DNA of 37,544 nucleotides from positions 1 to 37,544 of IMG/VR virus record IMGVR_UViG_3300050821_001813. The stretch is one strand, 5' to 3'. The position numbers were made by a program, and so were the translations under genes. How positions within the stretch are numbered: position 1 is the stretch's first letter; each line of letters opens with the position of its first letter. The notes under the pieces were generated by a model, which was not told the origin of the DNA, searched no databases, and saw only the letters and a list, made by a program, of their open reading frames with translations. Source of the DNA: a virus. Below, piece after piece: positions 7,857 through 34,147 of the stretch.

Positions 7857-8556
7857 CTACAGTTCTAGTATCATAGGCTCGTACACGGGTTTATAACCTT
7901 CATCACAAATTGCAACGTTCGCACACTTGGTTATATAACCTTCTTTAAAATCTGGTTGCTTTAGTTTCATGGGTGCGTAAAAACCACGTCCACTATGTAC
8001 ATGCCCGAATATATGCAGCTTGGGATTTACTTCCCTTAACCTTATGAGTAAATCCGCATCGCCCACATGAGCCCCTTCCCATTTACCGTTTTCAAAGGTT
8101 GCGCCCATACCGTCACCTATTCCTAATGGGGGTCCATGTGTAATAAGAACATCTGTATCTAAAGGAATCTTATCCCAGTGTTGGCGAATTTCGAAACCAC
8201 GTTTACAGTTAAATGCCCCAGTTACAGAACTCAGGCTGATAGGGACTGCCCCAAAACTTAACCCCATCGATTACAATACCGCTATCACGGAGATAATGGA
8301 ATCCTTTCGTTCCCCATTGCTCAAAGAATGACAAACAATGACCTTCATACTTCTCAAAAAGCCTGTCGTGGTTTCCTACGACTAGAATCTTGTGTTTATG
8401 CGGCTGGTGCATGAACCAGTTAGCGAAGTCCGCTATTTCCTTACCTTCTGTTCCCCAATTCATTAGGTCACCGGCAAATACAAGTACGTCTCCATCGGGA
8501 ACCTCTTTGATTCTCCGATGAAGCGTGTGCGTGTCTGACAGGGCTACAATTTTCAT
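7857..8556 (-). pseudogene. Calcineurin-like phosphoesterase, split by a +1 frame change
   Basis: Two overlapping frames together make one metallophosphoesterase. The first (from 8556) has MKIVALSDTHTLH, FAGDLMNWG and VVGNHDR and stops after PEFCNWGI. The second continues as AFNCKRGFEIRQHW, LITHGPPLG and HIFGHVHSGRG to 7857. All metal-binding motifs (DTH, GD, GNHD, TH, GHVH) are present only when joined. The break is at TGGGGC (minus strand, 8216-8219): dropping one G gives the family-like FCNWAFN. This is a frameshift mutation, a programmed +1 shift or a homopolymer sequencing error. The start overlaps the previous stop (ATGA). Confidence 0.85.
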
Positions 8557-8753
8557 AATCCTCCTACATCCCATTTACGATTAATATCATAATGGTCTTG
8601 TGTCATATAGACCTTGGCTACTCTCCACAGGCCGTCAATGCCTACAAGTGACATAACAGTGCCCTCTTTAAACTTAAACTTGCCACGCGGAAGCCAACAC
8701 ACGATCCTAGTGGGGTGACCGACATTTTCTAATTCAACTTGCGTGACTTTCAT
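8553..8753 (-). CDS. Small hypothetical beta-rich protein
   Basis: This 66-residue protein (MKVTQVELENVG...) has a strand-rich pattern (TRIVCWLPRGKFKFKEGTVMSL). The chosen ATG overlaps the upstream TGA and follows a GGAG site, favouring it over an upstream ATG at 8786 that lies inside the previous gene. It sits between two phosphoesterase genes with four-base overlaps on both sides. Function unknown. Confidence 0.6.
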   Translation of the reverse strand: MKVTQVELENVGHPTRIVCWLPRGKFKFKEGTVMSLVGIDGLWRVAKVYMTQDHYDINRKWDVGGL

Positions 8754-9842: not shown

Positions 9843-9938
9843 TGGCGGGTGCGGTAGGATTCGAACCCACGGAGCCGGGTCTTAACCGGCTCAACGGTTT
9901 TCAAGACCGCCGCCTTAATCCATCTCAGCCACACACCC
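9843..9938 (-). tRNA. tRNA-Ser (anticodon TGA)
   Basis: The minus strand folds as a class II tRNA with a long variable arm (GAGCCGG...CCGGCTC). The anticodon loop reads CTTGAAA. The acceptor is GGGTGTG/CGCACCC, and CCA is encoded. Confidence 0.93.
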
Positions 9939-9943
9939 GTTAA

Positions 9944-10153
9944 TTAGCTAATCAATTCCTTATAACGTTGTTCAAATTTCTTCTTGGCAAAATGTATAAC
10001 CGTAATTCTTTGATCGTTTTCAAATAAACTACGATACACTTCCTCTGCCATTCGTTCAGCAAACTCTTCTATACTGGTAATATCGGCTAGTTCGTTACCG
10101 CTCTGAATTAATGGATTCGAAAATGGATTTATAACAGTCCATTCTGTACGCAT
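9944..10153 (-). CDS. Small hypothetical protein between two tRNA-Ser genes
   Basis: This 69-residue protein begins MRTEWTVINPFSNPL and ends with a helix-rich segment (TSIEEFAERMAEEVYRSLFE ... FAKKKFEQRYKELIS). AAAGGAAC precedes the start. It lies between tRNA-Ser(GCT) and tRNA-Ser(TGA) with short gaps, so it shares their transcript. Function unknown. Confidence 0.6.
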   Translation of the reverse strand: MRTEWTVINPFSNPLIQSGNELADITSIEEFAERMAEEVYRSLFENDQRITVIHFAKKKFEQRYKELIS

Positions 10154-10167
10154 TTGTTCCTTTCTTA

Positions 10168-10257
10168 TGGCGGAAGGTGCAAGATTTGAACTTGCGAACC
10201 CACTTCAGGGTTGCCGCGTTAGCAGTGCGGTGCTTTAAACCACTCAGCCAACCTTCC
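10168..10257 (-). tRNA. tRNA-Ser (anticodon GCT)
   Basis: Class II cloverleaf: acceptor GGAAGGT/ACCTTCC, anticodon loop CTGCTAA, long variable arm, encoded CCA. A good promoter (10279-10307) lies about 20 bases upstream. Confidence 0.93.
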
Positions 10258-10278
10258 ATAAAACTAAACCCTACAGCT

Positions 10279-10307
10279 ATACTACCACCGTAGGGCCAAT
10301 TTGTCAA
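10279..10307 (-). promoter_or_regulatory. Sigma70-type promoter TTGACA-N17-TAGTAT
   Basis: On the minus strand, TTGACA (10302-10307) is 17 bases from TAGTAT (10279-10284). It precedes tRNA-Ser(GCT), so it should drive this tRNA and the genes after it. The flank AAGCTTGACAAA is shared with the promoter at 13584. Confidence 0.75.
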
Positions 10308-10320
10308 GCTTTAATTTCAA

Positions 10321-10476
10321 TTAATCTATGTTTATCAATTCTAGCAATTTTTTTATAAGATTCCTAACTGCTGGATTTTTCATAGCCCTTATTCTAGTTG
10401 CTAGCTCTGTTGCTACTGATATTCCCTCTAATATTTCTTCGTGAGTGGCAGTGCCATAATCTTTTTTCTTTGCCAT
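10321..10476 (-). CDS. 51-residue hypothetical protein
   Basis: This small helical protein (MAKKKDYGTATHEEILEGIS, then VATELATRIRAMKNP and a leucine-rich end) starts at the ATG after AAAAGGATTAT. The longer frame from 10563 crosses the tRNA-Leu and is not used. It lies between tRNA-Leu and a promoter for tRNA-Ser. No family is recognised. Confidence 0.6.
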   Translation of the reverse strand: MAKKKDYGTATHEEILEGISVATELATRIRAMKNPAVRNLIKKLLELINID

Positions 10477-10486
10477 ATAATCCTTT

Positions 10487-10569
10487 TGGTGCCGGTAGAG
10501 GGACACGAACCCCCAATCCTTTCGGCGGCAGCTTCTAAGGCTGCTGTGTATGCATTCCACCATACCGGC
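10487..10569 (-). tRNA. tRNA-Leu (anticodon TAG)
   Basis: Class II cloverleaf with acceptor GCCGGTA/TACCGGC, anticodon loop CTTAGAA, variable arm GCCGCCGAAAGGA, encoded CCA. Confidence 0.93.
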
Positions 10570-10695
10570 TTATCTCTTAAATTCGATATGCCAACCGTCG
10601 CCATATATCCAACCGGAATCCATGTCTTGTTGCATACAATAACCTTTGACATTATTTCTTAGAATACGGGCAGCTAGTAATCTTAACCATTTCAT
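10570..10695 (-). CDS. 41-residue hypothetical peptide between two tRNAs
   Basis: ATG follows AAAGGATTAAT. The peptide reads MKWLRLLAARILRNNV, then a polar Trp/Gly/Asp segment (MDSGWIYGDGWHIEF), and ends KR. Its stop abuts the first base of tRNA-Leu. It fills the gap between tRNA-Tyr and tRNA-Leu exactly, which supports it over an overlapping frame running through the tRNA. Function unknown. Confidence 0.5.
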   Translation of the reverse strand: MKWLRLLAARILRNNVKGYCMQQDMDSGWIYGDGWHIEFKR

Positions 10696-10705
10696 ATTAA
10701 TCCTT

Positions 10706-10794
10706 TGGTGCGTCAGGATGGAGTCGAACCACCTATCCGCGAATGCAGGGCAGATTTACAGTCTGCTGTAACAAGCCGAAGTTACCTCTAACGC
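10706..10794 (-). tRNA. tRNA-Tyr (anticodon GTA)
   Basis: Class II bacterial tRNA-Tyr: acceptor GCGTTAG/CTGACGC, anticodon loop CTGTAAA, long variable arm, encoded CCA. Confidence 0.92.
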
Positions 10795-10800
10795 ATAATT

Positions 10801-10879
10801 TGGTTCGGGGAGTGGGATTTGAACCCACGATAGCTGGCTTATGAGGCCAACGCTTTGAGCCGGACTAAGCTATCCCCGT
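10801..10879 (-). tRNA. tRNA with anticodon CAT (Met or Ile2 type)
   Basis: Acceptor bases 2-7 pair (CGGGGA/TCCCCG), while position 1:72 is A:A, a mismatch. The anticodon loop is CTCATAA and CCA is encoded. The anticodon stem lacks the three G:C pairs of initiator tRNAs, so elongator Met or lysidine-type Ile are the options; sequence alone does not settle it. Confidence 0.88.
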
Positions 10880-11114
10880 ATAAACTTAACGATACTCGCT
10901 ACCGGGACAATATGCAATATACAATTTGCAAAAGTCAATAAACACTTGTGAGGTAGTTGTTCCCGGTGCAATATGCACGTCTAATCCAGTAATGAAACTG
11001 GCAGATTTCAATGGTAATCCGGGGGTCATCCTCAAGCAAGGAGGTTAGCGTTTCCGCTAATCCTTCTCGAATGTAGCCGGTTTCCCGGCAGTTTGGTAGC
11101 GAGTACCGGATGAA
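10880..11114. other. Structured gap between tRNA-Met/Ile and the 187-residue gene
   Basis: No ATG-started gene is seen. ACTCGCTACC near 10893 and GGTAGCGAGT near 11095 are a perfect 10-bp inverted repeat bounding the gap. GCCGG/CCGGC and TTAGCG/CGCTAA hairpins lie inside. On the minus strand, the frame of the upstream gene stays open for about 58 codons after its TAA. It could be a small RNA, a decayed gene or a read-through extension. Confidence 0.4.
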
Positions 11115-11675
11115 TTAGAGGATTTCGTACTTCTTCAGTACGGAAACTTCCTTTTCATCAAGCTCAATTTCTGTTGAAACGTTCAAATGCAAAAGCTTGT
11201 CACTAATGGACTGCTTAGCTTTGCGAAGTTTGTTAATATCTGACTTGTACTTTTCAACAGTTTCCTTGGTCAGAAGACTAACAGTTACAGCATCCTTTGA
11301 GCGTCCATAGGAATCCTTCTGCGCTACCGCGTCCGCAATGATGGCGCTGATTGTCTTAGCATCTAAAGCAAAGGCCGTTGTAGACGCAAGCTGCTTCAAA
11401 AAGGCAGAGGTTTTTTCGTTTAATGCAAGTTCGGTTAGCAGCTTTGCGATTCCCGCGCTTGCACTAGCCTCGCCCACTTTGGTACGTAGTGAATACAGGA
11501 CTTCAATTAGACTAAACTTTTTCGCAATAGTCTGCGCTAACTTCTCGTCGGCTATCTGAAGTGCATCGGAAACTACATCATACTTACTAATAGTTGTAGT
11601 CCCAACAAATCCCTCATTAATTTGTTCATTAATGAGTAATTGCAGCGCATTTGCTTTTCTTAAACTAACCTTCAT
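11115..11675 (-). CDS. Conserved-looking helical phage protein
   Basis: This 186-residue protein begins MKVSLRKANALQLLINEQIN. This KVSLRKANALQ opening resembles a family of small helical phage proteins of unknown role. The start at 11675 has GAGGAG upstream and is preferred to the ATG at 11696, which lies inside the previous gene. The rest alternates helices rich in A, K and L and ends with a charged region (STEIELDEKEVSVLKKYEIL). After its TAA the same frame stays open. Confidence 0.65.
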   Translation of the reverse strand: MKVSLRKANALQLLINEQINEGFVGTTTISKYDVVSDALQIADEKLAQTIAKKFSLIEVLYSLRTKVGEASASAGIAKLLTELALNEKTSAFLKQLASTTAFALDAKTISAIIADAVAQKDSYGRSKDAVTVSLLTKETVEKYKSDINKLRKAKQSISDKLLHLNVSTEIELDEKEVSVLKKYEIL

Positions 11676-11979
11676 TTGTTTCTCCTCTCGTGTCAACCCA
11701 TTGCAGTTTTCCGTCTACTGCGTCATAATGGGGAATTTCTTTAATCTTCATTTCACAGAACTTGATAATGTCTTGGTACATTCCCATTGGACAATTCTTT
11801 GATGTACAACCGTCAAACAAAACTTCTACCACTTCAAAATGATCTGGATCGAATCTTGGACCGTCAAAGTTAAACGTTATAGAAGGATGGTCATTGATGA
11901 TTGTAAGTTCATGGACGGCCCCATCCTCGTCTGTATATGATCCTGTTGGTCCGTATTCGTTTCCTGTCCATTCTGTCAT
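11665..11979 (-). CDS. Hypothetical protein
   Basis: This 104-residue protein starts MTEWTGNEYGPTGSYTDEDG, with beta-like stretches (AVHELTIINDHPSITFNFDG) and one Cys pair (CTSKNC). TAATG overlap with the zinc-ribbon gene upstream and an AGAGG site support the start at 11979 rather than the ATG at 12003. It overlaps the start of the 186-residue gene by 11 bases. Function unknown. Confidence 0.6.
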   Translation of the reverse strand: MTEWTGNEYGPTGSYTDEDGAVHELTIINDHPSITFNFDGPRFDPDHFEVVEVLFDGCTSKNCPMGMYQDIIKFCEMKIKEIPHYDAVDGKLQWVDTRGETNEG

Positions 11980-12179
11980 TAGAATCCTCTTGGGCATCCC
12001 CATTGGGCCGGGGAAGGAACACTTGGTATAATTTTCATTTCGGGTTTAAGTTCTACATAATGACCATTGACTGTGTCTCGTGTGTACACACATGTATCAC
12101 AGAACTGGATAGAATTTAGCTTGGCAAGTCGTTCTTGTACTTTTTTACATAGAGGACATTTATACGTGTATAGCGCCAT
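11979..12179 (-). CDS. FmdB-like zinc-ribbon protein
   Basis: This 66-residue protein begins MALYTYKCPLCKKVQERLAK, with CPLC (residues 8-11) and CDTC (about 27-30) making a typical two-CxxC zinc ribbon of the FmdB type. A short disordered tail follows. Such proteins are thought to be regulators or nucleic-acid binders, but the substrate is not shown. It is co-translated with the next gene (TAATG). Confidence 0.7.
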   Translation of the reverse strand: MALYTYKCPLCKKVQERLAKLNSIQFCDTCVYTRDTVNGHYVELKPEMKIIPSVPSPAQWGCPRGF

Positions 12180-12187
12180 TACTTCTC

Positions 12188-12412
12188 CTAACTAAAGTTT
12201 ACAATTCCATCTGAATCAACAATCGCACTTGAAGCATCTACCCAAAATCCATTAATAGCTTCAAAATCAAACTTGTTCCTTTTTACTACTCTGGTTTCGG
12301 CGCTGCATTTTGTGATTCTAAATCCTTTAGCATGGCCCTTTAACGGGACAATATCATCGTCAAATACTATAGGCCACTCTTCATCTTTAGTAAACATTAC
12401 ACGAAATGCCAT
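12188..12412 (-). CDS. Small hypothetical protein
   Basis: This 74-residue protein has mixed strands (MAFRVMFTKDEEWPIVFDDD; RITKCSAETRVVKRNKFDFE) and one Cys. It lies between tRNA-Pro and the zinc-ribbon gene with short gaps and an SD-like AAAGGA. It is probably on the tRNA/tmRNA transcript. No family is recognised. Confidence 0.6.
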   Translation of the reverse strand: MAFRVMFTKDEEWPIVFDDDIVPLKGHAKGFRITKCSAETRVVKRNKFDFEAINGFWVDASSAIVDSDGIVNFS

Positions 12413-12427
12413 GCGTTCCTTTCAAAA

Positions 12428-12504
12428 TGGTACGGGTTGCTGGATTTAAACCAGCGATCTTCTGCTCCCAAAGCAGACGCGTTATCAGGCTTCGCTAAAC
12501 CCGT
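12428..12504 (-). tRNA. tRNA-Pro (anticodon TGG)
   Basis: Acceptor ACGGGTT/AACCCGT, anticodon loop TTTGGGA, T-arm GCTGG-TTTAAAT-CCAGC, encoded CCA. Confidence 0.92.
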
Positions 12505-12594
12505 ATAAACTCAATGACCGTTGACCGGCCTTTACATCCTGCTGTTACGGTCCAGAACAGGTTCTATGGAGTAAAGGGTTTCCCAGTCCAACAT

Positions 12595-12669
12595 TGGGGT
12601 GTAAGGTAGGATTTGAACCCACATAAACCGACGCCACAGGTCGGCGCATTACCTATCTGCCACTCACAC
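12595..12669 (-). tRNA. tRNA-His (anticodon GTG) without an encoded G-1
   Basis: Acceptor GTGTGAG/CTTACAC, discriminator C73, anticodon loop CTGTGGC, encoded CCA. The base before G1 is T, so the extra G normally encoded at position -1 in bacterial tRNA-His is missing. It follows the tmRNA coding piece by about 10 bases. Confidence 0.9.
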
Positions 12670-12679
12670 AAAACTTAAA

Positions 12680-13165
12680 TGGCCCGTTCTGTTTCCAAGT
12701 GGGCCAATCTCAGGCTGTTTAGGCCAGAACAAGATCATTGCTATTAACTTCAACCGAAGTTGAAACGCCAGCAATCATTTTGTCGTAAATGCTTGTTTCA
12801 GCAGTTACTTGTTTGATTCTCGTATACGGTGAGCATCAATCCCGGCACGTCCACTACACTACATTATACTGTCGAAACCTTGGCACACCCAAATTAATTA
12901 GCCCATGTGCATTACGCATTTGCACTCTCTAGAGGTTGCTGTAAACGACTTGCGAGGAAGTGACCTTGCAACTCAATTTGGGCTAAACTTATTACAAAAC
13001 TTGGTGGATGTGAGCGGACTCGAACCGCTGTCCAATATTACTTCATGTAACTTCATACGTGCGTACTTAAAATGTTTTTCCCGGTAGGATTACTTCTCGC
13101 CAAACTATTGTAATAGATTCAGCCTTTGCCTACGCACCGCTAGCAAGACGGCATGGCTTGGTGTT
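12680..13165 (-). ncRNA. ssrA: Circularly permuted (probably two-piece) tmRNA
   Basis: The 3' half comes first. The T-arm AGCGG-TTCGAGT-CCGCT and acceptor strand CACATCC, then A and CCA, end at 13002. After a 111-base spacer the 5' half starts at 12890 with GGGTGTG and the tmRNA hallmark GGTTTCGACAG. GGGTGTG pairs with CACATCC, including G3:U70, the alanine identity pair. P2 pairs across halves: ACGTGC with GCACGT and ATGTAG with TTACAT. The resume codon GCT (12800-12802, nucleotides 89-91) follows TAACT. A 27-codon tag ends ...NSNDLVLA with TAA at 12719. The outer ends (about 13165 and 12680) are estimates. It would rescue stalled ribosomes and tag their products. Confidence 0.88.
12891..13001 (-). 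ncRNA. tmRNA intervening sequence
   Basis: This 111-base spacer joins the CCA of the acceptor piece to G1 of the coding piece. TTAGCCCA and TGGGCTAA inside it (12979-12986 and 12898-12905) are exact complements and would draw the two ends together for processing. It is expected to be cut out. Confidence 0.7.
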
Positions 13166-13186: not shown

Positions 13187-13459
13187 TTACAGCTTTGCTA
13201 CAGCAGCAGCAAGTGCAGCTACAGCATTCTTAACATCAGTCTTAGTATCGGTAACAACTGTCTCAACAACAGGAACTACCTTTGCCTTGATTGCAGCTAC
13301 ATCAGCCGCAAGGGTTGGTGATACACCAGAAACAACAGACTCAACCTTTGTTTCTACAGCAGACAGTGATGCATTTACCTTTGAGCGAAAGCTAGAGTTG
13401 GAAATATAATCCACCAACGCATATAATCCTGCCGCTCCTAATCCGACTTCAATTAACAT
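13187..13459 (-). CDS. Small membrane-anchored alanine/valine-rich protein
   Basis: This 90-residue protein begins MLIEVGLGAAGLYALVDYIS, a hydrophobic N-terminal anchor, followed by a long amphipathic alanine/valine/lysine helix (VETKVESVVSG, DVKNAVAALAAAVAKL). GGAGATTTAAAAT precedes the start. It lies between the promoter at 13584 and the tmRNA, so all three share one transcript. No family is recognised. Confidence 0.6.
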   Translation of the reverse strand: MLIEVGLGAAGLYALVDYISNSSFRSKVNASLSAVETKVESVVSGVSPTLAADVAAIKAKVVPVVETVVTDTKTDVKNAVAALAAAVAKL

Positions 13460-32953: not shown

Positions 32954-34147
32954 ATGTCTAATATTCAAGAATCTTATCCTACTCAAACTACAGGTTTGGG
33001 TGTAGCCGCGAAAATCGCTGTCCAAGGTAACTTAGGAACAAGCACGATTCCCGGCAAAAATAACGTAGTCCTTTCAGTTGGTGGAGCTAACGGACAAACA
33101 AGTTTTCAATTAAACCCACAAGTACAGGATGCCTCCGGCGCAGAATATAACCCCGGAACAGCATTCGTTCTTACTAGTGTTGGCACATCTTCACCCGGAG
33201 CATTGACTCTGAGTGCAGTTGCGGCATCAGTGAACGGTACAGCGGTTTACACAGGTACTATTACAAGTGGCGGTTCAAACGCTTTCGTCGGCCTATTATT
33301 TACTGTAGCCGGATTCGTTGGCGCAAACAATAATGGCGTGTTCGTGGCAACAGCTTCAACTACAACCACACTAACATTAGCTAACGTAGCAGCAACAGCG
33401 GAAAGCGCATCAGCTACTGCAACTTCAGAAGAGGGTGTAGCTGTTTATACAGGAACTATTGGTGTAAAAGCTAACAGTCTTGTTGGACAGACTTTCACAG
33501 TCGCGGGATTCGTAACTACTCCGTCAAATAACGGTACATTCATTTGTACAGCGAACAACGGGAGTACTACAATCACACTTGAGAACAACTTCGCGGTTTC
33601 TGAAACACATGCAGCGACAGCAACATCTCAAGAAACTAACGAGAACGTATTCGTTATTAGCTCAGTAGCTTCTACAAGTGGCGGCGTAGCAGTTTACACC
33701 GGAACAATCGGTGTTGCAGCCAGTAGCCTTGTTGGAAAGACATTCGTTGTGACGGGCTTCGTAACTACTCCTGCTAACAACGGGACATTCGTAGCAACCG
33801 CGAATAACGGAAGCACGACATTAACTCTTGCAAATACAGCGGCGGTAGCGGAAACTCATGCGGCAACTGCGACTGGTCAACCAGTTCAGGCTGAGTTAAC
33901 ATATCTAGTTTATCCTGCGAAGACACTGACAGGTAATACCTATCAGCCTTCAGGAACAGCGACAGCAATTGCAACTGTTTCGGCGTCTGGTGTTGTTACA
34001 GCCGTTGCACCGGGTAATGTGGAAGTTGAAGTATCTTATCCAACATTCAGTAACGCAATTGGGGCCATTGTTTCTAGTGGAAACCCCATGAATGGTCTAC
34101 CAATCATGAAGATTTACGCAACTGTAAACGTACAAGTACTACCCTAA
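32954..34147 (+). CDS. Ig-like repeat virion protein
   Basis: This 397-residue protein contains three repeats of roughly 65-85 residues, each with VAVYTGTIG...LVG.TF.V.GFVTT..NNGTF..TANNGSTT.TL (repeats 2 and 3 very close). It ends with a BIG2-like domain (GTATAIATVSASGVVTAVAPG). Ig-like domains are common on phage heads and tails and bind surfaces weakly. It follows the decoration-type gene, and GGAG lies upstream of its ATG. It is probably exposed on the virion. Confidence 0.8.
   Translation: MSNIQESYPTQTTGLGVAAKIAVQGNLGTSTIPGKNNVVLSVGGANGQTSFQLNPQVQDASGAEYNPGTAFVLTSVGTSSPGALTLSAVAASVNGTAVYTGTITSGGSNAFVGLLFTVAGFVGANNNGVFVATASTTTTLTLANVAATAESASATATSEEGVAVYTGTIGVKANSLVGQTFTVAGFVTTPSNNGTFICTANNGSTTITLENNFAVSETHAATATSQETNENVFVISSVASTSGGVAVYTGTIGVAASSLVGKTFVVTGFVTTPANNGTFVATANNGSTTLTLANTAAVAETHAATATGQPVQAELTYLVYPAKTLTGNTYQPSGTATAIATVSASGVVTAVAPGNVEVEVSYPTFSNAIGAIVSSGNPMNGLPIMKIYATVNVQVLP

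Follow-up and report, generated by a model that had tools for sequence, protein, structure and literature searches.

A circularly permuted tmRNA gene kept in a family of soil podoviruses related to an Acidobacteriota phage

Introduction

Permuted tmRNAs of phages are already known as such. In a 2022 count of 133 unique structures of phage tmRNAs, 53 were reported as two-piece, and a two-piece molecule was described in phage Melnitz (PMC9004378); the supposition of a sequence-only reading of the locus described here, that a permuted tmRNA is rarer in a phage, is thus not supported. IMG/VR was also scanned with a sequence pattern; 44 of the matches listed were examined, and in most of these the acceptor and T-arm are genuine. 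The Methylophilales phage Melnitz and other aquatic phages (PMC9004378) share with the present case a permuted two-piece tmRNA in a tailed phage. However, Melnitz is a marine myophage with a riboswitch, and its ssrA groups with alphaproteobacterial genes, whereas the DNA studied here comes from a lineage of soil podoviruses to which one phage of Acidobacteriota is related. The ssrA genes of mycobacteriophages Bxz1 and Wildcat and of Bacillus phage G have also been listed (PMC4131195). They resemble the locus described here in being phage-borne and in lying among phage tRNAs. We take these three tmRNAs to be one-piece molecules of standard order, not permuted ones.

The window, which is the whole 37,544-base stretch of an IMG/VR virus record that was analysed, encodes a family A DNA polymerase, a terminase, a portal and a major head protein (PHROG/Pfam), so that phage hallmarks surround the tmRNA locus. 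Among named phages, its closest relative is Tunturiibacter phage Tunturi_3 (terminase identity 55%), a podovirus with an Acidobacteriota host (PMC11924767), and this kinship suggests that the window phage also infects Acidobacteriota. Three tRNAs, one of unknown type, have been given for Tunturi_3 without mention of a tmRNA (PMC11924767). The Tunturi_3 record carries no tmRNA annotation, yet it contains a match of 63.3 bits to the Rfam model tmRNA_permuted (RF04321).

Results

Anatomy of the gene

The minus strand of the window between 13062 and 12680 contains an entire gene of the circularly permuted (two-piece) tmRNA type, with the tRNA-like 3' half ahead of the 5' half (Table 1). The coordinates, acceptor stem, G3·U70 pair, P2 helix and resume codon that had been read from the letters alone are all present on this strand. 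The acceptor stem pairs fully across the break (7/7), G3-U70 included. The 5' half starts with GGGTGTG (12890-12884), which is followed by GGTTTCGAC, and the resume codon GCT occupies nucleotides 89-91 counted from G1 (12890). P2 is formed by GCACGT (13062-13057) and ACGTGC (12850-12845), together with UUACAU/AUGUAG. The layout of pseudoknot PK1 recurs in relatives L156, L158, L161, L174 and L175. The conserved end of the RNA is the pseudoknot at 12680; the outer ends called by ARAGORN (13094 and 12628) overrun into the adjoining tRNA-His.

Table 1 Features of the permuted tmRNA locus and its surroundings in the window
Feature	Coordinates	Strand	Basis
90-aa protein directly upstream of the tmRNA, probably co-transcribed	13187..13459	-	no PHROG/Pfam match
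5' leader, imperfect cloverleaf-like fold closed by UUUUCCCG/CGGGAAAA	13078..13183	-	sequence, MFE fold z=-1.4
Acceptor piece, P2 3' strand (GCACGTATGAAGTTACATGAAGTAATATT) and GGAC	13030..13062	-	RF04321 alignment; P2 outer helix with covariation, 16/17 relatives
Acceptor piece, T-arm AGCGGTTCGAGTCCGCT	13029-13013	-	RF04321 alignment, sequence, pairing across relatives
Acceptor 3' strand CACATCC	13012-13006	-	RF04321 alignment, sequence, pairing across relatives
A73, then encoded CCA	13005, 13004-13002	-	same acceptor piece (13002..13029)
Spacer of 111 nt with predicted excision; hairpin stacked on acceptor stem	12891..13001	-	length, fold
Coding piece, 5' strand of the acceptor (GGGTGTG, 12890-12884) with the D-loop region CCAAGGTTTCGAC	12871..12890	-	RF04321, sequence, pairing
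Coding piece, P2 5' strand with ACGTGC at its end	12845..12870	-	RF04321, covariation
PK1, H-type pseudoknot CGG..GATT-CTC..CCG..GAG-AATC, upstream of resume codon	12815..12844	-	assigned by eye
Tag frame: GCT resume (12802-12800), AETSIYDKMIAGVSTSVEVNSNDLVLA, stop TAA (12721-12719)	12719..12802	-	ARAGORN; relatives' open frames and conserved C-terminus
Post-tag pseudoknot (PK2-like): CUGAG/CUUGG and UGGCCC/GGGCCA, loop AAACAGAAC	12680..12713	-	covarying arms in relatives
Seven tRNA genes (Ser, Ser, Leu, Tyr, Met, Pro, His), downstream	9843..12669	-	ARAGORN, Rfam

Model scores and class

The check with a permuted model that the earlier reading had proposed supports it: RF04321, which merges the alpha, beta and cyano permuted tmRNAs and is built from permuted genes, matches the window with 73.2 bits (E 2e-12) against a cut-off of 47, although a tandemly duplicated standard gene can score with this model too, and ARAGORN calls a tmRNA*. 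None of the clade models named in the same proposal is listed above its threshold on the window. The tmRNA model RF00023 matches partially, on the acceptor side only, with 42.6 bits. The score of alpha_tmRNA (RF01849) is 6.8 bits against a threshold of 50, and no match to beta_tmRNA (RF01850) or cyano_tmRNA (RF01851) is listed for the window, where clan matches overlapped by a better one are not displayed. The best clade model of the relatives is mostly beta_tmRNA, with at most 74.9 bits against a threshold of 84; two relatives, L161 and L170, exceed the alpha threshold, and cyano_tmRNA has no listed match among them, lower-scoring overlapping clan matches again not being displayed. The failure of the clade models on the window raised the idea of a separate fourth origin of permutation. 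Such an origin is not claimed, because the beta scores of relatives go up to 74.9 bits, two relatives are above the alpha threshold, and other permuted tmRNAs of phages share the post-tag CUUGGNAACAGA motif.

The locus is like the RF04321 family in gene order, spacer, acceptor and T-arm, P2, G3-U70, PK1 and tag frame. It differs in its longer tag of 27 residues and in the conserved post-tag pseudoknot with its AACAGA loop. It is a real and well-supported permuted tmRNA gene, of an ordinary type for phages, in a family that has been little studied.

Conservation and covariation in the phage family

Relatives were gathered from IMG/VR with a DNA-polymerase profile, which gave 29 phage contigs and, with Tunturi_3, a family of 30 records. 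No relatives of the polymerase were found in GTDB genomes, and a blastn search of phage records with the tmRNA gave no match. A permuted tmRNA above the RF04321 cut-off is present in 23 of the 30 records, including the isolate Tunturi_3. Six of the seven records that lack a match stop approximately 0.3-1.7 kb past the polymerase; the seventh, L024, extends 2.3 kb past it.

Seventeen distinct genes remain once identical copies are dropped. All 17 form seven of seven acceptor pairs across the spacer. Three types of pair occur at position 4 of the stem and four at each of positions 5 and 6, with changes on both sides, while positions 1, 2 and 7 are always G-C and position 3 is always G-U. When partners were swapped between relatives as a control, complete acceptor pairing was found in only 46 of 272 combinations (17%). 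G3-U70 and A73 occur in every gene and CCA in 16 of 17, L174 having CCC. Two-sided changes are also found in P2 (GCACGU/ACGUGC, GCAUGU/ACAUGC, GCAAGU/ACUUGC and ACACG/CGUGU). Most relatives keep the arms of the post-tag pseudoknot with differing sequences, such as UGGCCC/GGGCCA, GUGGAGA/UCUCCAC and GCCUCUCU/AGAGAGGC, in a list of arms that leaves out the last two genes; four further permuted tmRNAs of phages contain the motif as well. The fold of the spacer onto the acceptor stem has z=-2.9 in the window and reaches -7.8 in relatives. These comparative data are the strongest evidence for a permuted tmRNA. Covariation in the acceptor stem, P2 and pseudoknot arms, together with the spacer fold, marks a selected RNA, produced neither by chance nor by decay. 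Together with the RF04321 score, the conservation across the family and the virus-only gene context, covariation bears out the central proposal that this phage carries a permuted tmRNA.

The T-loops of L173, L175, L161 and L170 are odd, with TAGCATA-like or GGC-containing sequences in place of TTCGANT.

The tag peptide

All 16 genes with a complete tag region have an open frame from the resume codon to a stop. The tags are 12-37 codons long, mostly 26 or more, whereas the most frequent published tmRNA tag length is 10 (PMC11915505). In the branch of the window, YD(K/E)M and LV(L/M)A are conserved while third codon positions vary: variable sites number 3, 0 and 6 by codon position (p=0.04, in a small sample with blocks picked after inspection). 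The tag ends in LAA, MAA or VAA in many other relatives, including Tunturi_3. Some genes have unusual ends, namely LVLA (as in the window), LVMA and, in L154, LVNVS. Tagging for ClpXP is therefore uncertain, because these tags do not end in LAA.

Gene neighbourhood

Short open reading frames similar to that of the 90-aa protein directly upstream (13187-13459) precede the tmRNA in several relatives; in L159, the upstream frame stops a few bases away. The 5' leader is not present in all relatives. A cloverleaf-like leader lies just 5' of the acceptor piece in L174, L166, L002 and L154, and a D-arm-like sequence, TAGTGGTAAACACCAAGCCATG, related to the leader of the window, is found in L002 and L166. 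The leader was rejected as a real tRNA: neither ARAGORN nor RF00005 calls one, and the z-score of the fold is only -1.4 in the window. In L174, where the leader adopts a full cloverleaf fold, yet gives no tRNA call, it is only -2.0. The leader may be what is left of a tRNA, or a signal for processing.

Open reading frames that resemble HNH endonucleases by eye adjoin the tmRNA in L002 (14220-14449), L158 (1850-2143) and L162 (1071-1469). The one in L002 is truncated and lacks a Pfam match; it directly follows the leader, at the expected site of the acceptor piece, and the contig ends there. Upstream of the tmRNA of L166, positions 1231-1334 match YrlA (Y RNA-like) below threshold (31.9 versus 69 bits).

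Rescue partners and the tmRNA of the host class

No SmpB was found in 22 family records, including the complete Tunturi_3. Since the phage records lack it, SmpB of the host must serve, and function hinges on this protein accepting a foreign, permuted tRNA-like domain. Two family phages encode a short RF-1-domain protein above the Pfam cut-off: L006 at 33669-34007 on the minus strand, which is gp125 of Tunturi_3 and contains a GGQ motif, and G026 at 8534-8710. It is possible that this protein is a second ribosome-rescue factor.

A complete standard tmRNA above the cut-off is present in 12 of 14 Acidobacteriota genomes, including Edaphobacter (now Tunturiibacter) lichenicola. The standard ssrA of Terriglobia specifies the same type of RNA and the same mechanism as the phage gene; however, it has the standard order and, in E. 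lichenicola, the tag AEPQFALAA. Because the host class uses the standard form, the phage gene was not copied from that of its presumed present host. Only one of 151 Terriglobia genomes passes RF04321. This match (L309, G133:C13:202144-202387) was rejected as a permuted gene, being a tandem duplication of the standard gene that sets a 3' half ahead of a 5' half and so passes the permuted model, which is a pitfall. Duplications of this type could be the kind of intermediate that might yield a permuted gene. The next-best five Terriglobia matches, all below the cut-off, are standard tmRNA genes according to ARAGORN.

Discussion

The locus is very probably a working phage-encoded circularly permuted ssrA gene that is used together with the alanyl-tRNA synthetase (AlaRS), RNases and SmpB of the host. 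Transcription with the upstream gene would give a precursor with the tRNA-like 3' half ahead of the 5' half. Host tRNA-processing enzymes, with RNase P acting at 12890 and 3'-end trimming at 13002, would remove the 111-nucleotide hairpin spacer and leave two RNAs joined by the acceptor stem and P2. The product would be charged by host AlaRS through G3-U70 and delivered to stalled ribosomes by host SmpB. The ribosome would resume at GCU and add the 27-residue tag ending in LVLA, which would probably be read by host proteases. During lytic takeover, this may keep ribosomes free while host mRNA is degraded. The claim that the phage has its own ribosome-rescue RNA is reasonable to that extent, but the RNA would work with a borrowed SmpB.

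The gene could act instead as a decoy or inhibitor, its RNA titrating SmpB of the host and so blocking trans-translation there; this role has been proposed for the RNA of mycobacteriophage DS6A, which consists of a tRNA-like domain only (PMC4131195, PMC11915505). Besides this precedent, the RNA of phages without their own SmpB must compete for that of the host, and the unusual tag ends would weaken tagging. However, the resume codon, open tag frame, PK1 and post-tag pseudoknot are kept, unlike in DS6A, and a pure decoy needs none of them; the bias of codon changes in the tag towards third positions also speaks against an inhibitor, which we consider quite unlikely. In another, unlikely reading, the long peptide-conserved tag (YDKM...ELVMA/LVLA in the branch of the window, LVNVS in L154) would be more than a ClpXP degron. 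Through an altered tmRNA, the phages could give rescued nascent chains a phage-specific tag with a different fate, such as degradation that is slower or selective, or recognition by an adaptor, and the RNA would meanwhile displace the standard tmRNA of the host from SmpB.

It is highly improbable that the gene is a dead remnant of a host ssrA taken up by transduction. Although ssrA is often the integration site of phages and islands, which carry fragments of it (PMC9004378), decay is contradicted by the covariation across the break in 17 genes and by the presence of the gene in most family records, and the standard form in the host class means that it is no copy of the presumed host gene. That tRNA-like pieces came together by chance, or that a duplicated gene of standard order was mistaken for a permuted one, has hardly any probability. 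One such duplication does occur, in the Terriglobia genome described above; however, ARAGORN finds no standard copy in the window, the RF00023 match there is limited to the acceptor side, and the relatives checked are permuted without a complete standard copy adjoining. The one further call of a standard gene by ARAGORN, in L025, is an overlapping one of low quality.

New in the case described here are the post-tag pseudoknot, the unusually long tags, the lack of SmpB in the phages and the standard form of tmRNA in the host class. Within this family of soil podoviruses, to which a phage of Acidobacteriota is related, the permuted tmRNA is stable and widely conserved. Tunturi_3 is in culture, and so is its host, Tunturiibacter psychrotolerans X5P2; therefore, what a phage may gain from its own tmRNA is testable in a laboratory pair.
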